Below are positions 1-10,155 of a stretch of DNA of 10,182 bases, in pieces. The stretch is taken from positions 87,017 to 97,198 of the forward strand of contig NVWJ01000005.1 of assembly GCA_002746235.1 (NCBI GenBank), read 5' to 3'. Under the pieces are notes generated by a model. That model was not told where the DNA came from, ran no database searches, and was given only the letters and a program-made list of their open reading frames with translations. This DNA is from Planctomycetota bacterium. GTDB lineage: Bacteria; Planctomycetota; UBA1135. Position 1 is the stretch's first letter. Every line of letters starts with the position of its first letter. Position numbers and translations under genes: made by a program.

Positions 1-2310
1 GGAGCAACAAGCGCAATAGTTTTGGGCTTGAAGGCGAAAGTCGCGGTGGCTGCGGCATTCGTATTGATTCCTTTAGCGGTGGTTCAGCCTTGGAAAGAAG
101 CGGAGAAGAAAAATCCCTCGCCTATCGATTTCGCACTCGCATTAAATGCAGAGCCGGGTTCGGTGGAGCTTGAACCATCCCAGCCGGGCCCGGTTGACCG
201 GGTCAATCACGAACCGACATTGGACCCCGTGTCAGTAAGGCCAATGGCATCTCTGCGCATCAAAGTGGTAGAGCAAGAAAGCGGTGCACCGATTCCCGAG
301 ATGGATCTTCAGTTGTTGAGTGGGTTAGTCGAAAACCGCAACACAGTACTTAGCAATCAAAAGGGTGTTACCGATGAGGACGGGGTATGGAGCCTTGAGA
401 TTCCTTGCGGAGAAACCTGGGTACGCATCGTCATGCCTATTGGCGAAGATTTGGCAGGGTTCGCGCAGCACCAGGACTGGCTGCTTGAAGAGGGGGATGT
501 TTTTGAGCACACCATCCTTGTACCCACAAGTTATGCAATTCGTTTTAGGGTAAAAGATCCTCAAGGCGACCCTCTTACAGATCAAAGATTCCGTGTCTCC
601 TTTGGAGAACGAGGTTCGGACTTTAATGTGCACCACACATACCAGACCAATGCGCACGGTGAAGCTTTGGCCACCTATTTCCCTGGCCAACTTATTGTTT
701 CCTTTGAGAATGTCCCTAACCACCTCTATCCGATCGTTGCCTGGCTCCCACTAACCAAGGAGCGTGATGGATTTGTGCAAGACCTGAATCTTTACGGACG
801 CCGTGAAGTCGAATTCGTGGTGCAGGACGAAGACCGTCGCGTGGCCGGAGATGCGGCACTAGAGTTTCGATTCCCCACCCTGGATATCGAAGGCGGCAGG
901 GTCTCAGCGGAATCGGTACGAAGCTGGGATCGGGAGCGCAAAGTCATCAAGACCGATGCAGATGGAAAAGTCTTGGTGGTCCTACCCGTCATTGAGGGAA
1001 TCCAGGTGACGGTCCAGCACCCCAACTACCAACCATTTGCCACAGAGATTCCAAGCTCCAATACGCAACAAACCTTGGTTCTCACATCGGGTGGGAGAGT
1101 CAGTGGGCGCATGCTTGATAAACAAGACCAACCGATTGTGGGTGCCGAAGTCATGGCCTGGGCAACTGGGGAGCTGAATTGGGGCAACTTCATGGGTGAT
1201 CCTCCTGACGAGAGGCAATGGAGAAGAACGACAACGGATGAACAGGGAAACTACCTGATTCATGGTTTAAAAACAGAAGGTTATTTCTTTCTCATGGCCA
1301 AGGCTGAAGGATTTGCCTACTACGGAAAGCGGTGGAAGGATTATCCCAGCGGATCGATTGACCTTTCACTGAAACCCTCCGCGCCCCTCTTTGGATTCGC
1401 TTTGGACAAGCAAGGTGAAAGGCTTGCCAAAGTTTGGGTCGAAGTCAGCGGCGAGCCAGTCTTTGGCCAAGTCACTCCGTGGCAAACTCTTTCCTACTAC
1501 GCAGACACTTACCGGCAACTCACAGATGAAGATGGTGCTTTTTCATTCCCTGGATTATTCCCTGGAAACCACAAACTAGAAATCCGTGGGGGAATGGAAA
1601 TGCGAAAGACATTTCCTACCGGGCCCGACCCTGTGTTCTTAGTCGAAGGAGAGCTGGATCCAGGACTTATCCTGGTTGATTTTGAAATTACGGATGCTGA
1701 TACTCAAAATCCTATTGCGCATGCAGAGCTCTGGAAATTCAAAACGCGCGATACGGGTGGAATGAGTGGCACTGGAACGCAGGAGGCTGACAAAGATGGG
1801 CACTGCATTTCAAAACTCGAGAAACGTGACCAGCAGCGTTGGTTTCATATCAAGGCAGAGGGCTACACCCCCGAAGTCATCTGGATGACCGAGTTTCCAG
1901 ATGGCCTATCTTCACGCAAAGTCGCTCTCCAACCAAGTGCTGCCTGCACCATTTCCTTCCAAGCTTCGGATGGCTTACCCCTGCTCATGGGTGATGAAGG
2001 GAAATCCCTTGGAGCGGCTCTGCTTCGAGGAAACGGGTTCATTCTTCCGGGGTCCTACCTGAGCCCCTTTCCAATGCCCGGCCAAGGGGTTGGTGCGGCA
2101 GGGCATTCCGCGGTCCGATATGAGAAAACGGTGTTCAAAGACTTCCCACGTGCCGGAGGCACCTTACGGGTTGAGGTTGGCATCGATCGGGATGAACATG
2201 GAGCCTTCACGCCGAGTGCATTCCTGGACATTCCGATCCCTGGCGGACTTAACGTTTACACCTTGACCTTCAGCCCTGAGGACCTGAAAGCTTTAGGACT
2301 GCGCAATTAG
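1..2310 (+). CDS. Membrane-anchored multidomain CarboxypepD_reg-like protein, 5' end outside window (probable sigma-factor fusion)
   Basis: The frame is open from base 1, so this is a partial gene. A TTG at 22 could serve as a start, but the codons before it (G-A-T-S-A-I-V) continue sensibly and match the juxtamembrane part of the sigma fusion at 2313-5546. I therefore treat it as truncated by the window. Counting residues from the TTG, a hydrophobic helix (about 5-22) is followed by PWKEAE, a Pro/Glu-rich linker to about 70, and then beta-sandwich domains of the carboxypeptidase-regulatory-like type. TDEDG-like turns have glycines at 121, 213, 315, 409, 505 and 593, a spacing of 88-102 residues, implying six domains. 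The last 130 residues form a different terminal domain. Such domains usually act as extracytoplasmic binding or structural modules, and I see no catalytic motif. The visible part should lie outside the cytoplasm. The gene converges on its presumed paralogue with 2 bp between stops. Confidence 0.85.
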   Translation, partial: GATSAIVLGLKAKVAVAAAFVLIPLAVVQPWKEAEKKNPSPIDFALALNAEPGSVELEPSQPGPVDRVNHEPTLDPVSVRPMASLRIKVVEQESGAPIPEMDLQLLSGLVENRNTVLSNQKGVTDEDGVWSLEIPCGETWVRIVMPIGEDLAGFAQHQDWLLEEGDVFEHTILVPTSYAIRFRVKDPQGDPLTDQRFRVSFGERGSDFNVHHTYQTNAHGEALATYFPGQLIVSFENVPNHLYPIVAWLPLTKERDGFVQDLNLYGRREVEFVVQDEDRRVAGDAALEFRFPTLDIEGGRVSAESVRSWDRERKVIKTDADGKVLVVLPVIEGIQVTVQHPNYQPFATEIPSSNTQQTLVLTSGGRVSGRMLDKQDQPIVGAEVMAWATGELNWGNFMGDPPDERQWRRTTTDEQGNYLIHGLKTEGYFFLMAKAEGFAYYGKRWKDYPSGSIDLSLKPSAPLFGFALDKQGERLAKVWVEVSGEPVFGQVTPWQTLSYYADTYRQLTDEDGAFSFPGLFPGNHKLEIRGGMEMRKTFPTGPDPVFLVEGELDPGLILVDFEITDADTQNPIAHAELWKFKTRDTGGMSGTGTQEADKDGHCISKLEKRDQQRWFHIKAEGYTPEVIWMTEFPDGLSSRKVALQPSAACTISFQASDGLPLLMGDEGKSLGAALLRGNGFILPGSYLSPFPMPGQGVGAAGHSAVRYEKTVFKDFPRAGGTLRVEVGIDRDEHGAFTPSAFLDIPIPGGLNVYTLTFSPEDLKALGLRN

Positions 2311-2312
2311 CT

Positions 2313-5300
2313 TCACTGTTCTTGCTCACTCCATGCTTTCTCATCGGATCGAGCTTCTTGCATCGCTTGCGCAAGCTTGCCGGGATCAATTGAAAAGTGA
2401 AACTCCTGCCCATCATCATGATCGAGAACCGTAATAACTTTGGTGTCCTGGGTGCCAGGGAGCGGGACCCAACGGTGGATCGAAGAGTTGTTTCGCGCGT
2501 GATAAACCTGAAACTCGATACGATAATCCCCAGGCCAGGCCAATCGGATTTCGTCCTTCCCTAACCCATCAAGCTCGACCTGAACGCTGCGATTCGGGTG
2601 TAACGACCCATCATCCGAAACGCGAAACATGTTCGCATGGAAATCCCAATCGGCAGGCACTATATCGGGATTATCAAGCACCAAAGTGCATGGAATCCCG
2701 TTCTTAAGCACAATCCGCTGATCCCCTTGCACCTGGTGCAGGATCACACCGCGCCTGTTTTTCGCCGAGAACTCCAAATCAAATCCTTGGTTCTTACTGA
2801 CCAAAGGAAGAGGTTGGAAGTCAAAGGGTTCACGGTATTCCAGTATTGGATTCCACAGGCGACCGCCTTTCACCTGTTGGCCACTTTCATCCACCACCGT
2901 CGCGCGTATGGCATGCAGTTGCCCACGCAAGTCAATGTCTGGGAAAACGAACTCGCCATGTGTCGACAGAAGTTTTTGCGGGGGAATGAAAAACAGCTCT
3001 TCATCCAACCATGCAGATTGGATTCGTAAGCCGTAGGTCCCTGGGGTGATGCCGCGAAATTCGTAGTTCCCATTGGAGTCGGCAAAAATTGCGCTCCCGT
3101 AAAACTCTCCCGGCGCATTGGGTTTAGGGGTCAACAATGCCACATGGACGCCATGAGTTGGAATGCTGGGGTCAAGAAACAGGCGCCCGCTAATAGTCCA
3201 TGTTTCACCAAACCGAAGCTCAACCGTCGCGTTGGGAGGCACAAACTCAGTCCACCCTTTCCGATGATCACGATGGCTTGCCTCGACTCGATAACGCATT
3301 CGGTCCGGGTGCGCGTAAATAGTGAACTGCCCTTGCTCCCCCGTCGTAGCGGTTAGGCCGTCCAATTCTTGCCAGTCGATGGCGCCTTCTTGGCTTTCCG
3401 CCACCATGATGGTGCCACGGGAACGGGCGGTGGTATCCAAATAACTTCCGTCTATTCCTTTGGCATAGGCCATTTTCACTTTTGCTCCGGCCACGGGAAT
3501 TCCGCCAAAGGTTAATATCCTGCCTTGCACAAGAATGGGCGGAGTTTCCACGACGAATGCGCCCAAGTCATGGTCGCCAGGACTCAAAGTACGACTCAAA
3601 TCAATCGTAGCGGTACGCCTTTCCTTAAGCTTGGTCTTGCGCATGATCACCGTAAACGCTCTGGTGAAACCTGCTTCGCATTCCGGTTCTATTTGAAGCC
3701 GAAACTGACCTTCTGCATCGGTTTGAATCGTGCGGAGCACCGTCGTGTCGGAGTCTGTAGATTGCCAACGAATGCGCGCCTTCAGCGACAGGTTTTTCGC
3801 CACCATACCTTCTGTATTCAAAACCTTACCCACAACAAAGCTCGCACTTAACTTTGGTTGCAGTGCGATACTGACTAACTCTTTGGCAGAAGTCGGGCCA
3901 AGGGAGTTCATGGATTCCATAATCGAGAAATCTAAGGATCCCGCCGCGACGAAAAGCGCTTGGTCGAGAGAGACATAAGGAAAGAATGCTCGTCCCTGAA
4001 AAGTGCGCGTTACCAAACCATCGCCATCAAGCGGACCGAAATCTTCTTCATCCAAGGGAGCTAAAGTCACCATAAAATCGCCCTTCATCAAGGCGCCAGA
4101 ATCTCTCCGAATTCTCACTTCCACCTGTCCTGTTTGTGGCATGACCAAGGTCACTGCATGCTGAGGAAGATTCCACAGATCCACCTTCGTCATCATGGGT
4201 TCTTGCGAGAGCGTATTTAGCTGCACATAAAACGACTCCCTTTCCGGCACTGCAAGAATACCGCTGAGCAGAGGAATCCATGCGAGGCCGTCGGCATTCG
4301 TTTCTGCCCCAATCCCACCTCCATGAAAACTTTTATTTGACAAGCACAAGCTCACGGCTGCTCCCTCCACAGGGCGACTACCTAGATCGATTACCTTCAC
4401 AAGCAAGGTAGGAACACGATCTAATCGAAGCACGATGTCCTCCCCCGCTAAAGCCCGTTGAGTTAGATCCGTCGACTTTAAGATGCCAACGAATTCCCCT
4501 GATGCGCCGATGAGATGCAGCTTTCCTTTGGGCCGAGGAATCCGAATCTGTCCTTTTTCGTCGGCGAGATACCGTTCTCCTAGCGCCCTTAAGAAACGTA
4601 GGCCACCGACTCCCTCTGCCTCCATCAATTGATCTTCAGGCATTGGGACCATGCCCATATCAAGCACGATGATTTCCGCACCAGGGATAGGCTTGTTCCC
4701 ATTACTGTCGACGACCATGACTACTGGACCGGTTTTCGATGCGGGGGAATAATGCAACGAGTGCGAAGATATTGTCTCAAGTTTAATCCTTTCCACTGTC
4801 GCAACTCCGGCGCTCTCCGATGCTACTTCTGCATCCACCGGCCCGGTTTCAGCAGCCGCAACCACTTCCGAGGCCGACGCCAGCTCAAGTGCACTCTCCT
4901 CCCGTTCCCACGGCGCCCAAAGCGCAAGCGTAGTCACCGAAGCTGCCACCGCTGCGACTACGGCGGTAGATCCGAGCGTCCATGATGTTGGAGCCAAAGG
5001 CATGGCAAAGACCTGACATCGCAAACGCCATTGGGTGCCAAGGTCTTCTTGCAAAGCGGTGCGTAAATGCTTTAGCCCTACACCAATCCGCGATTGAGCG
5101 GTGTCAATGGGAACCTTGGTGCGGCTTGCAACTTCCCGTACTGGGAGGTCCTCGAAATAGCGCAGGTAAATGGTTGCGGCATAAGGCTCTGGCAACTGCA
5201 TCACGGCGGAGGCTAAGCGTTTGAACGTTTCCATGCGCTCCGCCAAGTCATCCGGCGATGCGGATTCTGAACGATGCCCCATCGCGGCCAGATCGTCCTC

Positions 5301-5546
5301 CACCTCGCGACGTCGTCCTTGCTCGCGCCACCCTTTCCCAGCCGCACTACGCACCACCGATGCCCACCACGAACGCAAATTCCCGCCATGACTCGGCGGA
5401 TGCTCCAGCGCAGTCAGCCAAGCTTGTTGCTCGACGTCATCTGCGCCTGCGGGATCGGAAACTAGACTACGGGCCAACGCACGCACCCAGCCACTGTGGG
5501 CTAAAAGGGCATCGAGGTCCGGGGTGTTGGGTGGCACGGTCGTCAT
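2313..5546 (-). CDS. ECF-type sigma-70 factor fused to a transmembrane helix and tandem CarboxypepD_reg-like domains
   Basis: This 1077-residue protein begins as an ECF sigma factor. Region 2 (about 13-80) contains GADDVEQQAWLTALE and the basic WW-rich region 2.4 helix ending GWREQGRRREVED. Region 4 (about 105-168) contains LPEPYAATIYLRYFEDLPVREVA and the helix-turn-helix TKVPIDTAQSRI. A hydrophobic helix at about 190-210 is followed by APWEREE and a low-complexity Ala/Glu/Ser linker to about 250. The remainder is a chain of beta-sandwich domains marked by D/N-x-x-G turns (glycines 332, 420, 518, 613, 739, 826, 921) and ends in a separate terminal domain. The expected topology is sigma in the cytoplasm and the chain outside. 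Typical ECF factors are about 170-200 residues and are held by a separate anti-sigma; here tether and sensor may be on the same chain (inference). ATG at 5546 is the only standard start after the in-frame stop; its Shine-Dalgarno is weak. No anti-sigma gene is recognisable nearby. Confidence 0.9.
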   Translation of the reverse strand: MTTVPPNTPDLDALLAHSGWVRALARSLVSDPAGADDVEQQAWLTALEHPPSHGGNLRSWWASVVRSAAGKGWREQGRRREVEDDLAAMGHRSESASPDDLAERMETFKRLASAVMQLPEPYAATIYLRYFEDLPVREVASRTKVPIDTAQSRIGVGLKHLRTALQEDLGTQWRLRCQVFAMPLAPTSWTLGSTAVVAAVAASVTTLALWAPWEREESALELASASEVVAAAETGPVDAEVASESAGVATVERIKLETISSHSLHYSPASKTGPVVMVVDSNGNKPIPGAEIIVLDMGMVPMPEDQLMEAEGVGGLRFLRALGERYLADEKGQIRIPRPKGKLHLIGASGEFVGILKSTDLTQRALAGEDIVLRLDRVPTLLVKVIDLGSRPVEGAAVSLCLSNKSFHGGGIGAETNADGLAWIPLLSGILAVPERESFYVQLNTLSQEPMMTKVDLWNLPQHAVTLVMPQTGQVEVRIRRDSGALMKGDFMVTLAPLDEEDFGPLDGDGLVTRTFQGRAFFPYVSLDQALFVAAGSLDFSIMESMNSLGPTSAKELVSIALQPKLSASFVVGKVLNTEGMVAKNLSLKARIRWQSTDSDTTVLRTIQTDAEGQFRLQIEPECEAGFTRAFTVIMRKTKLKERRTATIDLSRTLSPGDHDLGAFVVETPPILVQGRILTFGGIPVAGAKVKMAYAKGIDGSYLDTTARSRGTIMVAESQEGAIDWQELDGLTATTGEQGQFTIYAHPDRMRYRVEASHRDHRKGWTEFVPPNATVELRFGETWTISGRLFLDPSIPTHGVHVALLTPKPNAPGEFYGSAIFADSNGNYEFRGITPGTYGLRIQSAWLDEELFFIPPQKLLSTHGEFVFPDIDLRGQLHAIRATVVDESGQQVKGGRLWNPILEYREPFDFQPLPLVSKNQGFDLEFSAKNRRGVILHQVQGDQRIVLKNGIPCTLVLDNPDIVPADWDFHANMFRVSDDGSLHPNRSVQVELDGLGKDEIRLAWPGDYRIEFQVYHARNNSSIHRWVPLPGTQDTKVITVLDHDDGQEFHFSIDPGKLAQAMQEARSDEKAWSEQEQ
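2365..2380. repeat. Overlapping palindromes near the convergent gene ends
   Basis: GCTTGCGCAAGC (2365-2376) and GCAAGCTTGC (2371-2380) are both perfect palindromes sharing six bases. They lie inside the last codons of the sigma fusion, 55 bp past the stop of the + strand gene. There is no T-run after either, so a classical intrinsic terminator is not supported. They may be a coincidence of coding sequence. Confidence 0.35.
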
Positions 5547-5579
5547 CTTCGCAAGAAGAATGTGTTTCGATGCCTTTTG

Positions 5580-5608
5580 CTTTGGAGAAATCTTGGAGAG
5601 TTTTCTCC
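5580..5608 (-). promoter_or_regulatory. TTGGAGA direct repeats plus inverted copy upstream of the sigma fusion gene
   Basis: The 110 bp gap 5547-5656 separates the 163-residue membrane protein gene from the sigma fusion gene. On the + strand, TTGGAGA occurs at 5582-5588 and 5593-5599, exactly 11 bp apart, about one helical turn. The second copy forms a dyad with TCTCC at 5604-5608 (GGAGA-GTTT-TCTCC). The cluster lies about 34-62 bp before the sigma ATG, where an operator or an autoregulated promoter could sit. I cannot identify convincing -35 and -10 boxes. The regulatory role is inferred from position and repeat spacing only. Confidence 0.3.
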
Positions 5609-5656: not shown

Positions 5657-6148
5657 CTAAATGAGAGCTTCCATGAACCCCATAGACGCTATGGATTCTG
5701 GCTTTCTGCAACCGCAATGAATCAGCCCAGCTTCTGGGTCGAAGCTTGGAGCGCTCTTACCTTCGACTTCCTTTCCACCAAGAAAATACGCCTTGCCATC
5801 TTGCCATTCCACGCGAGCATTCGACCAACGACCGGAAGGCAGAAAACAATAGGCGGCCATTCCATCGGGGCGCATAACTCTGAGGAGGGTTAGGAATCCA
5901 CCCTTGGTCGGGGTGTTGATGAGAGTGACTCGATAATCATCGGACTCGACCGTGAGCTCCATGGAAGAAGCAAGGCTGGCCTCCATTTCATGCAAGAGAA
6001 TCTGCCCATGCGTCGGCACCGAAAGAACTAGAAACGGAAGTGCGGCAAAAGCAACGCCCAAAAATACGTATCCTTTTTGTTTGCGCTTTACCCATGCGAG
6101 AGTAAAGCCAAAAGCCAACACCGAAGCAAGAGCAAGGAATACGAGCAT
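5657..6148 (-). CDS. Small two-helix membrane protein with extracytoplasmic tail, unknown function
   Basis: I do not recognise the family of this 163-residue protein. Two hydrophobic helices (about 2-20 and 27-44) are joined by the basic loop KRKQKG, which by the positive-inside rule puts the loop in the cytoplasm and both termini outside. The tail from about 45 onward is predicted mostly beta, with a Cys at 101 and a C-G-C pair at 145 and 147 that could be oxidised outside the cell. It ends 110 bp before the sigma fusion gene on the same strand and starts 127 bp after the preceding gene. The ATG start has no clear Shine-Dalgarno. Adjacent position and topology would allow it to interact with the extracytoplasmic part of the sigma fusion, but nothing in its sequence resembles an anti-sigma domain. 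Confidence 0.7.
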   Translation of the reverse strand: MLVFLALASVLAFGFTLAWVKRKQKGYVFLGVAFAALPFLVLSVPTHGQILLHEMEASLASSMELTVESDDYRVTLINTPTKGGFLTLLRVMRPDGMAAYCFLPSGRWSNARVEWQDGKAYFLGGKEVEGKSAPSFDPEAGLIHCGCRKPESIASMGFMEALI

Positions 6149-6272
6149 GTTTTAGAGTTGAGGGTTGTAGGTGTATAGAAATCACCGTGCTCCCTTATCG
6201 GCTCATCCTCGACGATTCTAAAAGGCTCTCTCGGAACAAACCCTCGATTTCTAATCGATGATTAGTAGGCGT
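6149..6272. promoter_or_regulatory. Intergenic gap with two mutually exclusive hairpins and a weak -10-like box
   Basis: Two perfect inverted repeats overlap here: TCGATT-TCT-AATCGA (6244-6258) and CTAATC-GAT-GATTAG (6251-6265). They share 6251-6258, so only one hairpin can form at a time. Neither is followed by a T-run on either strand. Nearer the downstream gene, the - strand reads TATACA at 6177-6172, which could be a -10 element, but no matching -35 is visible. The gap may therefore end the upstream operon, hold an operator, or contain the promoter of the 163-residue gene. Confidence 0.3.
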
Positions 6273-6286
6273 ATTCTAGCTAGAAT
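6273..6286. repeat. 14-bp perfect palindrome ATTCTAGCTAGAAT over a stop codon
   Basis: ATTCTAGCTAGAAT is its own reverse complement. It includes the TAG stop (6278-6276) of the beta-rich protein gene. With no loop and no T-run it reads more like a protein-binding dyad than a terminator. It lies 8 bp from the overlapping hairpins at 6244-6265. Confidence 0.4.
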
Positions 6287-6752
6287 TACTTTGTTGAGCA
6301 CGACGCCAACTCATGAGGACTAACCAAAATGCAAAAGCAAGCGTTGGCGCATCGTAATCTTCCGCGTCCAGTTGAATGGTGCTGCGGCGCGTGAATGGAT
6401 GCACAGGCTCAATCCTTGCAAGAACTTGCTCTTCACGAAACAATTTGAAGGACCGACCCATTGCGGATTCTGGGCTTAAGGTCAACTCCCCCATGGGAGT
6501 GCTCATTTCGATTCTCCGACTGAGCATGGAAACTTTCTGTGCGGATAGGACTTCTTGTTCATCCAACTCCAAGGACCAATGCCCGCTGCCCATTCCGTGT
6601 TTTCGAACGAGATAAGTTTCGCCATCTAAAGTGAGCGAGCCCTGCTCACCCATAAGATTGAAAACCAGCGATGCTTTCCCGCCTTCCATATCGAGGCGGA
6701 AATCCCACGAACAAAGGCCTTTGGGCAGGCAGGAGATTATTTGTGAAGGCAC
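6276..6752 (-). CDS. Beta-rich protein with C-terminal membrane segment, possibly tubby/LURP-one-like fold
   Basis: This 158-residue protein has alternating short beta-strand stretches (for example GSLTLDGETYLVRKHGM, about 38-54, and FKLFREEQVLARIEPVHPFTRR, about 102-123). It ends in a hydrophobic segment and basic cap, LAFAFWLVLMSWRRAQ (about 138-153). From memory, the layout of repeated strands, an F-T-R-R motif and a final LxxWLVLxxWRR helix recalls a family of bacterial hypothetical proteins. The repeated strands surrounding a C-terminal helix also recall the tubby/LURP-one barrel; this fold call is tentative. The start is GTG at 6752. No ATG lies in frame between it and the upstream stop, and no Shine-Dalgarno is evident. 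It follows the polytopic membrane protein gene by 26 bp and is probably in the same operon as the M1 peptidase. Confidence 0.75.
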   Translation of the reverse strand: MPSQIISCLPKGLCSWDFRLDMEGGKASLVFNLMGEQGSLTLDGETYLVRKHGMGSGHWSLELDEQEVLSAQKVSMLSRRIEMSTPMGELTLSPESAMGRSFKLFREEQVLARIEPVHPFTRRSTIQLDAEDYDAPTLAFAFWLVLMSWRRAQQSNSS

Positions 6753-6778
6753 CTGAAAGAAGAAGGCCTGGGGTTCTG

Positions 6779-7852
6779 CTAAAACGCCATATCGGGTAGT
6801 TCCGCATCGGCTTCTGCGTCGGCGGATTCTTCAGCGGCTGCCGAGTCATGAGTCTTGGCAGCATAGAAAGTGGCGAGACTTACATATCTTGCGCCGCGGA
6901 AAACAATACGTCCGAACGGAAGCAAGAAAAGCAGGGTCCACATCGGCCAGTCGGCGAACTCTTGCACCGCTTTGGCGCCGGCAATCCAAAAGAGTTCGAG
7001 GGCAAAGCCAAGACTCATCATCCCGAAAACTTGCAGCGGACTGCGCAGGAAGAAGCCAACGGCGCGAAAGATGGCGAGCAGGGCAGAGCGTCGGTTGCCG
7101 CAAATCATCGAAGCGCGCGCTAAGTCGAGCAGGATTTCAATCTTCCATAAGGTGAGTAGGAACAACACCTGGCGCAAGGTTTCCAACCAGCGGCCGGTTT
7201 GTTCACTAGCGGCTTGGGTGGCATCGCCCTCTGGCATCATGCGTCCGAAAAACCATTCTGCCGGTGTGCCCCAGAAGATCCACGTTGCAAGAGCGAACAT
7301 GGGAAGCGCGAGTATCCAGGTGCGCAAGAACGGGAAGAAAAAATGTCCGCCACATTGCAGGAAGGTGCGCAGGGAATGACGGCGGCGATTCAACAAGGCG
7401 ATGCGCATCCAGCCGGCAGTGATGATGAGGTTGAATAAGCTGGCCAGAAGGAGCAGCGGTGCCAAAGTTTGCGCAGCAATGCCGAGTTCGGTGGGTGCGG
7501 CGCGGAACCATTCCTCGAACATCCAGGCCGGCGCAACTCCAGGCAAATCAATTGGGGTGCCGCCATCGATGGCTTCAAAATTACCCAGGTGCTGCTCTGC
7601 CGCGAAGAAGGTTGGGAGCGCCACGACCAATGGAAGCACCAAACTCACTCCCAATAAGAACAAGAGTAAACGCGGACGAGCGAGTGCTGCCCAAACGCCG
7701 CCAAGTAAATGGCTGCCGATGGAGCGTTCACGCGGCGATAAATCGAAAGCCTCCCGCGGCGATGGACTATCCACCGGGAAGGCATCGACCACCATCGTGG
7801 TAGGCATGCTCGCGGGTGCTGGATCGGAGCCAGAGGTGATGGGGCCCGACAT
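6779..7852 (-). CDS. Polytopic integral membrane protein, translationally coupled to the M1 peptidase
   Basis: The protein has 357 residues if started at ATG 7852. Hydrophobic segments lie at about 61-83, 127-148, 171-195, 226-243, 270-292 and 303-318, so about six helices are expected. The first 50 residues are polar and Pro/Ser-rich, and the tail is acidic (AEESADAEADAELPDMAF). Two segments look alike: RIALLNRRRHSLRTFLQCGG-x-FFFPFLR (about 150-177) and ARASMICGNRRSALLAIFRA-x-x-FFLRSP (about 245-271). Each is a basic loop followed by an amphipathic stretch, suggesting an internal duplication. I recognise no transporter or enzyme signature. The frame stays open to 7921, but ATG 7852 has a GGAGGAG Shine-Dalgarno seven bases upstream and overlaps the peptidase stop by one base, so it is the better start. 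Coupling implies co-production with the secreted peptidase; the functional link is inferred. Confidence 0.85.
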   Translation of the reverse strand: MSGPITSGSDPAPASMPTTMVVDAFPVDSPSPREAFDLSPRERSIGSHLLGGVWAALARPRLLLFLLGVSLVLPLVVALPTFFAAEQHLGNFEAIDGGTPIDLPGVAPAWMFEEWFRAAPTELGIAAQTLAPLLLLASLFNLIITAGWMRIALLNRRRHSLRTFLQCGGHFFFPFLRTWILALPMFALATWIFWGTPAEWFFGRMMPEGDATQAASEQTGRWLETLRQVLFLLTLWKIEILLDLARASMICGNRRSALLAIFRAVGFFLRSPLQVFGMMSLGFALELFWIAGAKAVQEFADWPMWTLLFLLPFGRIVFRGARYVSLATFYAAKTHDSAAAEESADAEADAELPDMAF

Positions 7853-10155
7853 TAGCCCACTCCTCCAAAGTATTGCAGGACTTGTTGCGCCCACAACATG
7901 GCTTGCACACCGACATGCCACGCGTTTTCCGTATTCGGTTCACGGGTGAAAGTGTTGTTACTCCAATCGCGATCCAGCATGAGATGACGACGTGGATCAA
8001 TTTCCACTTTCACCGCCTGTTGCGGATGTTGATGCCACCGGTAAGTCCAAACCCAATCATCGCCCGCCCAAACCAAATCGGTGGCACTGCCATCTTCCCA
8101 AGTCACGCGAATCTCTACCGGAACCGCAAAGTCGGTAGTGCGCGTGATGCCAATCTCCACCTCAAACTGCGGCGCGCCGGAGGTCTGCCCTTGCTGCAAA
8201 GTCGGCTCGCTCGTGAGGTGATGCACTTTGAAGTCCATCTCTGCATTGCCGACGTAAGCATGCTCCCAAAACTTAGCCCAATCCAACGCTATGCTGCCAT
8301 TCTCGCCACTTAAGCTCGCGCCATGTCCAAACTCTAAAAGCGTGCGCAAGAAGTCATCCGGCTGTGGATGCTGATAGCGGAAGCGTTCGTGGTAAGCCCG
8401 CAACACCCGTATCCAGCGCTCTTCCCCCATCATGCGCGCCATGGTTTCTAAAGTCATGGCCGGACGATAGTACGCATTGATCCGACGCTGCATGGTGTCT
8501 TGCAAATCCATAGTCGGAAACTGCAATGGCTGCCCCCACGCGACGCGGAACTTCTCCCGCTCATCCAACACGCTGTCATGGCGCACCTCCGGGAAGTAGG
8601 TCACTGGCGGCAATTCGGCGAGGAATCGTCCGAGCGAATCGTGCTTGCGTAATGCCAACGACAAGTCCGGAACAAAACCAAGATCCGGCGATTCCCATTG
8701 CTCCAAACTCAGAAAACCACGCGCATCGCCCTCTTCATAACTCGGCATTGCGAGTGGGGCATGTCCCGCATATTCGCTTCCGAACACCGAATAGGTATCG
8801 ACTTGTGCAGGAAATGCCTTGTTCATGATGCGCTTGGTGCTGAAGGTATTGAAGCCCTCATCCATCCACGCATGACGGAATTCATCATTGCCGACCAGGC
8901 CATACCAAAACTGATGACCGAACTCATGCACGGTCACGCCTTGCGGGCGCATGGTGGTTTCAGCAACACCAAGTTTCGCGCCGCCGGTAATCAAACGCGG
9001 ATATTCCATGCCGCCAGTTGCGCGCGCATCGTTCGCCGGGTCGACGCAGGAAATCGTCGGGTATGGATAACTGCCGTACCAAAGGCCGAAGTAGTAAATC
9101 GCCTTGCCGAGAGCATCGAAATAACGTTCTTCTAGGTTTGCGTGTTCCGGCTGCAGCAGCAAAATCATTTTGGTGGGCGATGGCCGCACCGTGTCGACCG
9201 AGCGACCGAGTGCCCGCGCTACCTTTTGCTCTTCTTCATCATCGCGATACATCTCGGCACGGAATTCGCGTTCGATGACTTTCGCTTTAGGATCCACGGT
9301 CCATGCATAATCATGAATATCTTCCGCTTCAGTGAAGTAGGTGATGGTGCCATCTTCATTGTGCGCAGCACCGGTCCCCATGATGGAACCGCTAGTGACA
9401 AAATGATTTTCATAACGTGGCGGCATGGTGAGGTTCACCTTATAGCTGCCAAAGTCGGAATAGAACTCCACCAAGTAACGGTATGGCGGACAGTTCCACT
9501 GCACCTCTCCATTGAGTTTTTCAAAGACTCCCAATTTCGGGAACCATTGCACCGCATGCAAATAACCTTCGCCGCCAAAACCGCTACGTCGGAAGGCGCG
9601 TGGCATGGTCGCTGTAAAATGCAATTCCACAGTCACCGAATGATGCGGCAGCACCATACGTGGAAGTTTCATGCGCGCAACCGTGCGATCGAGCGGTGCG
9701 CCGGGTTGCGGCAAGAACTCAAAATCTAAATCTAGATTTTCTTCTACAAGGAGCTCGCCATCAGGGTTGGTGATGCCCAAAAAATGCGCCCACTCCACTT
9801 CGGTGTGACCAAATTCGCGCGGCACGGTGGCATCGCCCTTCATACGGGCTTCGGTCAACCAAGCCGACTGCGGTCCTTCCCATGCGTTGTTGTAAACATG
9901 CCAATACAACTCATCGGTGGGCGACGAAGTTTGGTTTTCCCAAGTGACTTTGAGTTGACCAGAAATCGTGTGCCCATCTTCGGCCAACGCGATGTCCATT
10001 TCGTACGCAACCGTACGCGGACTTTCGGTGGGCAGATGGGTTGGCAGGGGCTCTTGTGCAAAGAGCCCCGAAGCTCCGCTGAAGGCAAACGCTAGGCCGA
10101 GACCTAGGTGCTTTCGGAGAGTGGGTAGTTTGGGTTTGACGGCGGTTGGCCGCAT
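7852..10155 (-). CDS. Secreted M1-family zinc metallopeptidase (aminopeptidase-like)
   Basis: The protein has 767 residues. A signal peptide is visible: basic start (KPKLPTLRKH), hydrophobic core about 17-31, and likely cleavage after LFA (about 33), so it should act outside the cytoplasm. An N-terminal beta domain (about 45-290) contains the M1-typical QWFPK stretch (203-207). The catalytic domain has HEFGH at 410-414 and the third zinc ligand Glu433, exactly 18 residues after the second His (DEGFNTF). The exopeptidase-type motif appears as GGMEY (381-385) in place of the classical GxMEN. The likely transition-state tyrosine is Y562 or Y563 in AYYRPA. A beta-rich C-terminal domain and a hydrophobic tail (about 745-767) follow. 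M1 enzymes usually remove N-terminal residues from peptides; the substrate here is unknown. ATG 10155 has AGGA seven bases upstream. The stop overlaps the next gene by one base. Confidence 0.93.
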   Translation of the reverse strand: MRPTAVKPKLPTLRKHLGLGLAFAFSGASGLFAQEPLPTHLPTESPRTVAYEMDIALAEDGHTISGQLKVTWENQTSSPTDELYWHVYNNAWEGPQSAWLTEARMKGDATVPREFGHTEVEWAHFLGITNPDGELLVEENLDLDFEFLPQPGAPLDRTVARMKLPRMVLPHHSVTVELHFTATMPRAFRRSGFGGEGYLHAVQWFPKLGVFEKLNGEVQWNCPPYRYLVEFYSDFGSYKVNLTMPPRYENHFVTSGSIMGTGAAHNEDGTITYFTEAEDIHDYAWTVDPKAKVIEREFRAEMYRDDEEEQKVARALGRSVDTVRPSPTKMILLLQPEHANLEERYFDALGKAIYYFGLWYGSYPYPTISCVDPANDARATGGMEYPRLITGGAKLGVAETTMRPQGVTVHEFGHQFWYGLVGNDEFRHAWMDEGFNTFSTKRIMNKAFPAQVDTYSVFGSEYAGHAPLAMPSYEEGDARGFLSLEQWESPDLGFVPDLSLALRKHDSLGRFLAELPPVTYFPEVRHDSVLDEREKFRVAWGQPLQFPTMDLQDTMQRRINAYYRPAMTLETMARMMGEERWIRVLRAYHERFRYQHPQPDDFLRTLLEFGHGASLSGENGSIALDWAKFWEHAYVGNAEMDFKVHHLTSEPTLQQGQTSGAPQFEVEIGITRTTDFAVPVEIRVTWEDGSATDLVWAGDDWVWTYRWHQHPQQAVKVEIDPRRHLMLDRDWSNNTFTREPNTENAWHVGVQAMLWAQQVLQYFGGVG
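7860..7866 (-). promoter_or_regulatory. Shine-Dalgarno GGAGGAG deciding the start of the membrane protein gene
   Basis: On the - strand GGAGGAG lies seven bases before ATG 7852, inside the last codons of the M1 peptidase (Gly-Gly-Val). Together with the TAATG stop/start overlap it indicates translational coupling and argues against the longer reading from 7921. Confidence 0.85.

Follow-up and report, generated by a model that had tools for sequence, protein, structure and literature searches.

In textbook signalling by extracytoplasmic function (ECF) sigma factors a separate inhibitor is needed. The gene described here lies on the minus strand at positions 2313–5546 of a 10,182-nucleotide stretch of a Planctomycetota genome (assembly GCA_002746235.1, contig NVWJ01000005.1; the whole stretch is called the window below). 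The frame is real and encodes 1077 amino acids (aa; 118 kDa), with a predicted ECF sigma domain, transmembrane helix and large ectodomain. The original prediction, a model's reading of the letters, had placed anchor and possible sensor on the sigma factor's own chain, and the predicted ECF domain, anchor and outside repeats do lie on one polypeptide. The lineage appears to have merged sensor, anchor and sigma factor into one chain without a detected anti-sigma domain, and an outside signal could free a gene switch without a separate inhibitor protein. This makes it testable whether membrane tethering alone is enough to silence a sigma factor.

Several described systems share part of this layout. 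IutY of Pseudomonas putida, a sigma/anti-sigma hybrid (ECF243 in PMC8999054), likewise has a cytosolic ECF domain, a single transmembrane helix and a periplasmic C-terminal domain on one chain, and Prc and RseP liberate from it a sigma fragment of ~23 kDa (PMC5411451), close in size to the 21.0–23.1 kDa calculated for the window protein if cleaved at residues 189–211. It differs in that an anti-sigma domain for cell-surface signalling makes up its periplasmic part, whereas the window protein carries a beta-sandwich chain, and in that its partner, the TonB-dependent receptor IutA, is encoded next door (PMC5411451); no TonB-dependent receptor adjoining the window gene was seen by eye in the surrounding 19 kb or by Pfam on the five other frames of the window. 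A further difference from IutY is that proteins of the window type are present in several copies in one genome. ECF52 (SCO4117 of Streptomyces coelicolor), together with ECF48 and ECF53, also places sigma domain, transmembrane helix and outside domain on one chain, and for ECF52 proteolytic activation has been proposed and positive autoregulation suggested (PMC5826349, PMC8999054). It differs in having a zinc finger between sigma domain and helix (PMC5826349), where the window protein has no zf-HC2 match. ECF52 further has a proline-rich stretch, along with a carbohydrate-binding domain, and according to its descriptions is restricted to Actinobacteria (PMC5826349, PMC8999054); no family named as carbohydrate-binding is among the Pfam matches of the 1077-aa protein at E ≤ 1. 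Within the same phylum, the WD40-ECF fusions of Gemmataceae are likewise expanded multidomain ECF proteins, and some Gemmataceae ECF proteins were recovered in detergent-soluble fractions (PMC8567305). These fusions carry WD40 repeats rather than CarboxypepD_reg or immunoglobulin-like modules, and the available text of the reports mentions neither anchor nor export (PMC8567305, PMC11032199). RsgI-type anti-sigma factors are alike in outside sensor, membrane helix and an RseP cut within that helix (PMC12203970), with the difference that in those systems it is the anti-sigma factor that spans the membrane, the sigma factor being a separate protein. By its predicted domains the window protein is of the IutY/ECF52-like layout, without the FecR-type domain or the ECF52 zinc finger. 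No description of CarboxypepD_reg-type fused ECF factors was found in the literature searched, and an ECF number may already have been assigned to the group.

Sigma domain, membrane helix and ectodomain

Both sigma regions claimed in the original prediction were found in the one frame above curated Pfam cut-offs. Region 2 (residues 11–89, 5280–5516), with modelled helices, matches Sigma70_r2 best over residues 16–79 (30.4 bits, cut-off 24), while region 4 (residues 98–167, 5046–5255) matches Sigma70_r4_2 at residues 110–161 (31.0 bits, cut-off 25.7); TIGR02937 (sigma70-ECF) also passes (45.7, cut-off 42.9). Other sigma regions have no match among the families listed for the protein in the Pfam scan. 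Judged from these matches, the N-terminal domain is a genuine ECF (sigma-70 group 4) domain. Across 37 aligned family sequences it is the best conserved part of the protein, and D37, Q40, W43, W60 and R66 in region 2 are invariant, i.e., the core sigma residues are conserved, as retention of the RNA polymerase contacts demanded by the original prediction would require. That the sigma part is a relic, carried by a protein which now acts only at the surface or in the periplasm, would be in line with the modest scores of the two regions (30–31 bits), yet is hardly credible given this conservation and the ECF-like promoter element kept upstream of many family genes.

A short cytoplasmic segment (residues 168–189, 4980–5045; motif LGxxWRxRCxVFAxPL) leads from the sigma domain to the membrane. 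Its conservation of 0.65, almost at the level of the sigma domain, compares with 0.27 in the stalk beyond the helix, and in the 37 sequences 9–38 residues separate region 4 from the best hydrophobic window. The periplasmic domain of IutY belongs to the FecR family. Neither FecR nor zf-HC2 was matched in the 1077-aa protein at E ≤ 1, nor in 33 family members scanned, among 25 of the 29 matching families listed. In the genome FecR (PF04773) has no matches (control matches in 4 of 14), and zf-HC2 occurs at 2 places elsewhere. At this level of comparison no anti-sigma domain is detected between sigma domain and membrane. Likewise, nothing recurrent that could be a conserved operon partner or adjacent anti-sigma factor was seen by eye in the frames of 22 loci, Pfam covering the window frames only.

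The transmembrane helix, predicted at residues ~190–210 (4917–4979) in agreement with the earlier claim, coincides with the hydrophobicity peak of the protein. AlphaFold2 (mean predicted local distance difference test, pLDDT, 80.5; predicted template modelling score 0.49) gives helices up to residue 181 and a helix at residues 195–209, the latter included in a region of pLDDT below 50 across residues 182–260. A search with residues 1–240 returned 71 proteins of 615–1428 aa at E ≤ 1e-3, including one of Planctomycetes bacterium Poly30; it admits only proteins of ~592–1885 aa and is uninformative on short ones. Since 71 long proteins match this part, the ECF-membrane-ectodomain layout is not due to chance. 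A Kyte–Doolittle (KD) window of at least 1.4 lies within residues 140–330 in all 71, and KD 1.8 is reached beyond residue 350 in only one. In a free-energy scan with biological-scale values, giving results for 40 of the 71 proteins, the best segment of the window protein is borderline at +0.2, that of the other 39 ranges from 0.0 to −3.5, and the next-best segments lie between +1.4 and +5.9.

The orientation across the membrane can be read from charge and from paralogues. Over the 71 homologues, net charge averages +2.3 in the 40 residues ahead of the best window and −3.7 in the 40 that follow it, and the order is as expected in 61 (3 ties). The genome also has ten loci with ectodomain relatives lacking a sigma domain (L003, L005, L006, L009, L010, L012 and L015–L018), of which nine have at their N-terminus a hydrophobic segment for export or anchoring, the tenth (L018) being cut near its locus edge. 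The charge bias and these segments together make it most likely that the sigma domain is cytoplasmic and the repeats extracytoplasmic, as had been proposed, the beta-sandwich chain being probably located in the periplasm. None of the three outcomes named as refuting the original prediction (lost polymerase contacts, repeats in the cytoplasm, a hydrophobic stretch outside the membrane) was found. It is however conceivable that the hydrophobic stretch is not inserted, or forms a hairpin, and that the whole chain is cytoplasmic with the repeats serving as a scaffold, as maybe in the WD40-ECF fusions of Gemmataceae; such fusions are known from Planctomycetes (PMC8567305, PMC11032199). The borderline +0.2 would suit such an arrangement, and so would the two hydrophobic stretches seen in several homologues, where the best KD window falls in the earlier one; set against the segment scores of 0.0 or below in the other 39 proteins, the charge bias and the export or anchor segments of the sigma-less paralogues, we consider it quite improbable. 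A two-helix hairpin with the repeats inside was set aside, each of the 40 proteins having one favourable or near-neutral segment and a next-best one of at least +1.4, and is unlikely despite the earlier-stretch windows. The sigma-less paralogues may compete with the sigma receptors, act as decoys for them or serve as their free partners.

Beyond the helix follows a disordered Ala/Glu-rich stalk (residues 211–264, 4755–4916), a candidate site-1 region, in which R253 is kept in at least 90% of the 37 sequences, i.e., nearly invariant despite the poor conservation around it. The ectodomain proper (residues 265–1051, 2394–4754) is a chain of beta-sandwich modules by the model, AlphaFold2 giving an all-beta chain at residues 275–1051 and a C-terminal helix at residues 1055–1076 (2319–2384). 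The beta-sandwich repeats originally proposed are thus present in the model, over ~790 rather than ~860 residues, residues 211–264 being stalk and the last ~22 a helix. One module (residues 670–781, 3204–3539) is transthyretin/carboxypeptidase-D-like. The proposed CarboxypepD_reg identity agrees with the score summed over the protein (56.2 bits against a cut-off of 32.3), but the best stretch (residues 784–844, 3015–3197) taken alone is within E 1 and misses E 0.01, and a chain of CarboxypepD_reg modules therefore rests mainly on the AlphaFold2 model. An ectodomain query (residues 265–1077) gave no PDB sequence at E ≤ 1 and four protein matches including itself (scoring covered the 7995 candidates with the most words in common with the query), and Foldseek on the whole chain was uninformative (query-normalised TM-scores 0.04–0.13 among the 50 matches listed).

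Release from the membrane

The earlier proposal had allowed for either proteolytic release or action at the membrane, and analogy with IutY leans towards release. From the computed domains, helix and topology, the lack of a detected anti-sigma domain, the size of the family and the shared promoter element, we infer, with a probability of about two in three, that the tether inhibits the sigma factor and that two-step proteolysis releases it. The conserved pre-membrane segment would link the cytoplasmic ECF domain to a single membrane helix, and a flexible stalk would carry the long beta-sandwich chain outside the inner membrane. At rest, tethering would stop the sigma factor from working with RNA polymerase. 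When the ectodomain gains or loses a ligand, a periplasmic protease would cleave the stalk and an RseP-type site-2 protease would then cleave the helix. The freed fragment (~21–23 kDa) would bind RNA polymerase and, in positive feedback, drive transcription of its own gene at a promoter of ECF type, as well as that of further targets. Candidate site-2 and site-1 enzymes are encoded in the genome, namely an M50 protease in which HEAGH and LDG motifs are present and S41 matches at five places, but most bacteria have such proteases.

ToxR and CadC are membrane-bound activators, and the fused sigma factor could also be active while anchored, with RNA polymerase recruited to the membrane and the signal passed by dimerisation or shape change without cleavage. 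The conservation of the pre-membrane segment is more than a plain cut-away linker needs, and the cytosolic sigma domain of IutY stayed tightly membrane-associated (PMC5411451). Release is nevertheless favoured because IutY, with the same layout, is freed by Prc and RseP, and because all its helix-bearing truncations need RseP for activity (PMC5411451), which makes action in the anchored state unlikely. The two observations in favour of anchored action weigh against tether inhibition and release, as do several others. The IutY truncations were undetectable without RseP, so their RseP dependence carries a stability caveat (PMC5411451). The helix of the window protein is itself borderline in free energy and of low model confidence. 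A motif similar to that around R253 is seen by eye also in the sigma-less ectodomain paralogues and is therefore not specific to sigma release. Finally, the ECF-promoter-like element of the window gene reaches only −1.1 against the motif derived below for the whole family and is weak alone.

Family size, promoter element and sensor halves

The genome (3.16 Mb, 26 contigs, 87.6% complete) has Sigma70_r2 at 35 places, 34 of them over the cut-off and seven in long frames of 892–1104 aa. The search for the same architecture in other genomes, suggested with the original prediction, was productive: besides the 71 long homologues, the N-terminal 218 residues are matched (E ≤ 0.001) in 38 of 41 genomes (this one and 40 relatives), with up to 35 matches in a single genome. 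Frames of at least 500 aa hold 142 of 150 among the matches listed (a hand count; weaker matches exist), and in a phylum survey 80 of 149 genomes match at E ≤ 1e-8 (at most 20 candidates scored per genome). The fused ECF factors form a large, apparently unstudied family in Planctomycetota. The size of this family had been missed in the original prediction, as had the second fused sigma gene next door and the promoter element that many of the family's genes have in common. In one genome (G001) the closest fused sigma gene (L105, 7914–8453) looks frameshifted, a 113-aa and a 143-aa frame each holding a piece of the sigma domain.

Upstream sequences point to a common promoter element. From 98 sequences 11 were dropped (closed frames below 300 aa), and the 87 used are nearly all from long frames, with at least two exceptions (L041, 272 aa; L113, 259 aa). 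A 28-base motif, cctGAA.cg...GCgGcat, was found with a log-likelihood ratio of 279, compared to 103–126 in six first-order shuffled sets, the input genes being related and their upstream sequences not independent. Fifteen of the 16 best sites end 8–17 nucleotides (nt) before the start codon. The pattern TGAAYC-N13-SSGGSAT, drawn from this motif, was matched at 22 places spread over six of eight genomes, and its reverse at one; nine of the 22 are directly before a fused-sigma start and 13 elsewhere; five of the nine fused sigma genes were in the training set (L172, L178, L182, L186, L188) and four were outside it (L169, L170, L173, L181). The window gene has a diverged copy at 5560–5587 on the minus strand, ending 13 nt before the start codon, and the element has drifted in the gene's own family. 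It is in register with relatives: over 15 upstreams, its own included, the summed information is 21.2, compared to a mean of 8.3 and a maximum of 13.0 over 2000 random offsets, an agreement which partly reflects common descent and ribosome-binding sequence. An own-genus pattern has three matches in nine genomes, two directly before fused sigma genes by coordinates and a third (L192) with no long frame after it. By eye no such element was seen upstream of the sigma-less paralogues L003, L005, L006 and L009. As an ECF-like element is common to genes of the family, it suggests that the fused-sigma genes are autoregulated. At L175 (G053:C16:10510) the pattern lies 12 nt before a long frame which does not match the fused-sigma queries and may be a candidate regulon member or a chance match.

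The histories of sigma domain and ectodomain disagree. Relative to the 1077-aa protein, P0005 is 68% identical in the sigma domain and 19% in the ectodomain, and P0030 is 59% and 37% identical, respectively. P0023 (706 aa) combines the ectodomain type of the 1077-aa protein with a sigma domain from another clade (99/99 support). In the ectodomain tree this ectodomain type forms one clade, but three changes are needed to place it on the sigma tree, where constraining it to a single clade gives an approximately unbiased test p of 0.053, which is not decisive. Identity also drops abruptly in the distal ectodomain of proteins that are near-identical in sigma domain, anchor and proximal ectodomain: P0025 and P0026 are 98–100% identical over 300 residues and 20–56% from about residue 350, and P0013–P0017, outside the stalk, mostly share 70–100% identity up to about residue 600 and 22–76% beyond it, lowest against P0017. 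Either recombination between gene copies or chimeric metagenome assembly could explain the drops. It is possible, if doubtful, that the family is a repertoire of receptor-transcription factors in which sensor halves are exchanged, the sigma-anchor half is kept or homogenised, and a promoter of shared class autoregulates each copy. If true, such a repertoire would sense the outside in a modular and diversifying way and would need no partner protein to reach RNA polymerase, and the mosaics, if real, would wire bacterial receptor diversification directly to transcription and offer a source of modular biosensor parts. Fused-sigma genes also occur in tandem arrays, three at L098 4713–16312 (G007:C12) and two at L096 7037–13728 (G002:C64), a setting for gene conversion.

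Neighbouring genes

The left part of the window (1–2310, plus strand) holds the C-terminal 769 aa of a second fused ECF-membrane-ectodomain gene (965 aa), the sigma half being encoded immediately beyond the left edge of the window; it is one of the seven long frames counted above. It is a distant relative of the gene at 2313–5546 and convergent with it, the two being 2 nt apart. Upstream of the sigma gene and in the same direction (5657–7921, minus strand) are frames of 163, 158 and 380 aa; by eye, hydrophobic stretches are present in two of them, and none has a Pfam match above cut-off. Further upstream, the minus-strand frame at 7852–10155 is M1-family peptidase-like (PF01433, 44.7 bits), with an HEFGH motif and, by eye, a signal-peptide-like N-terminus.
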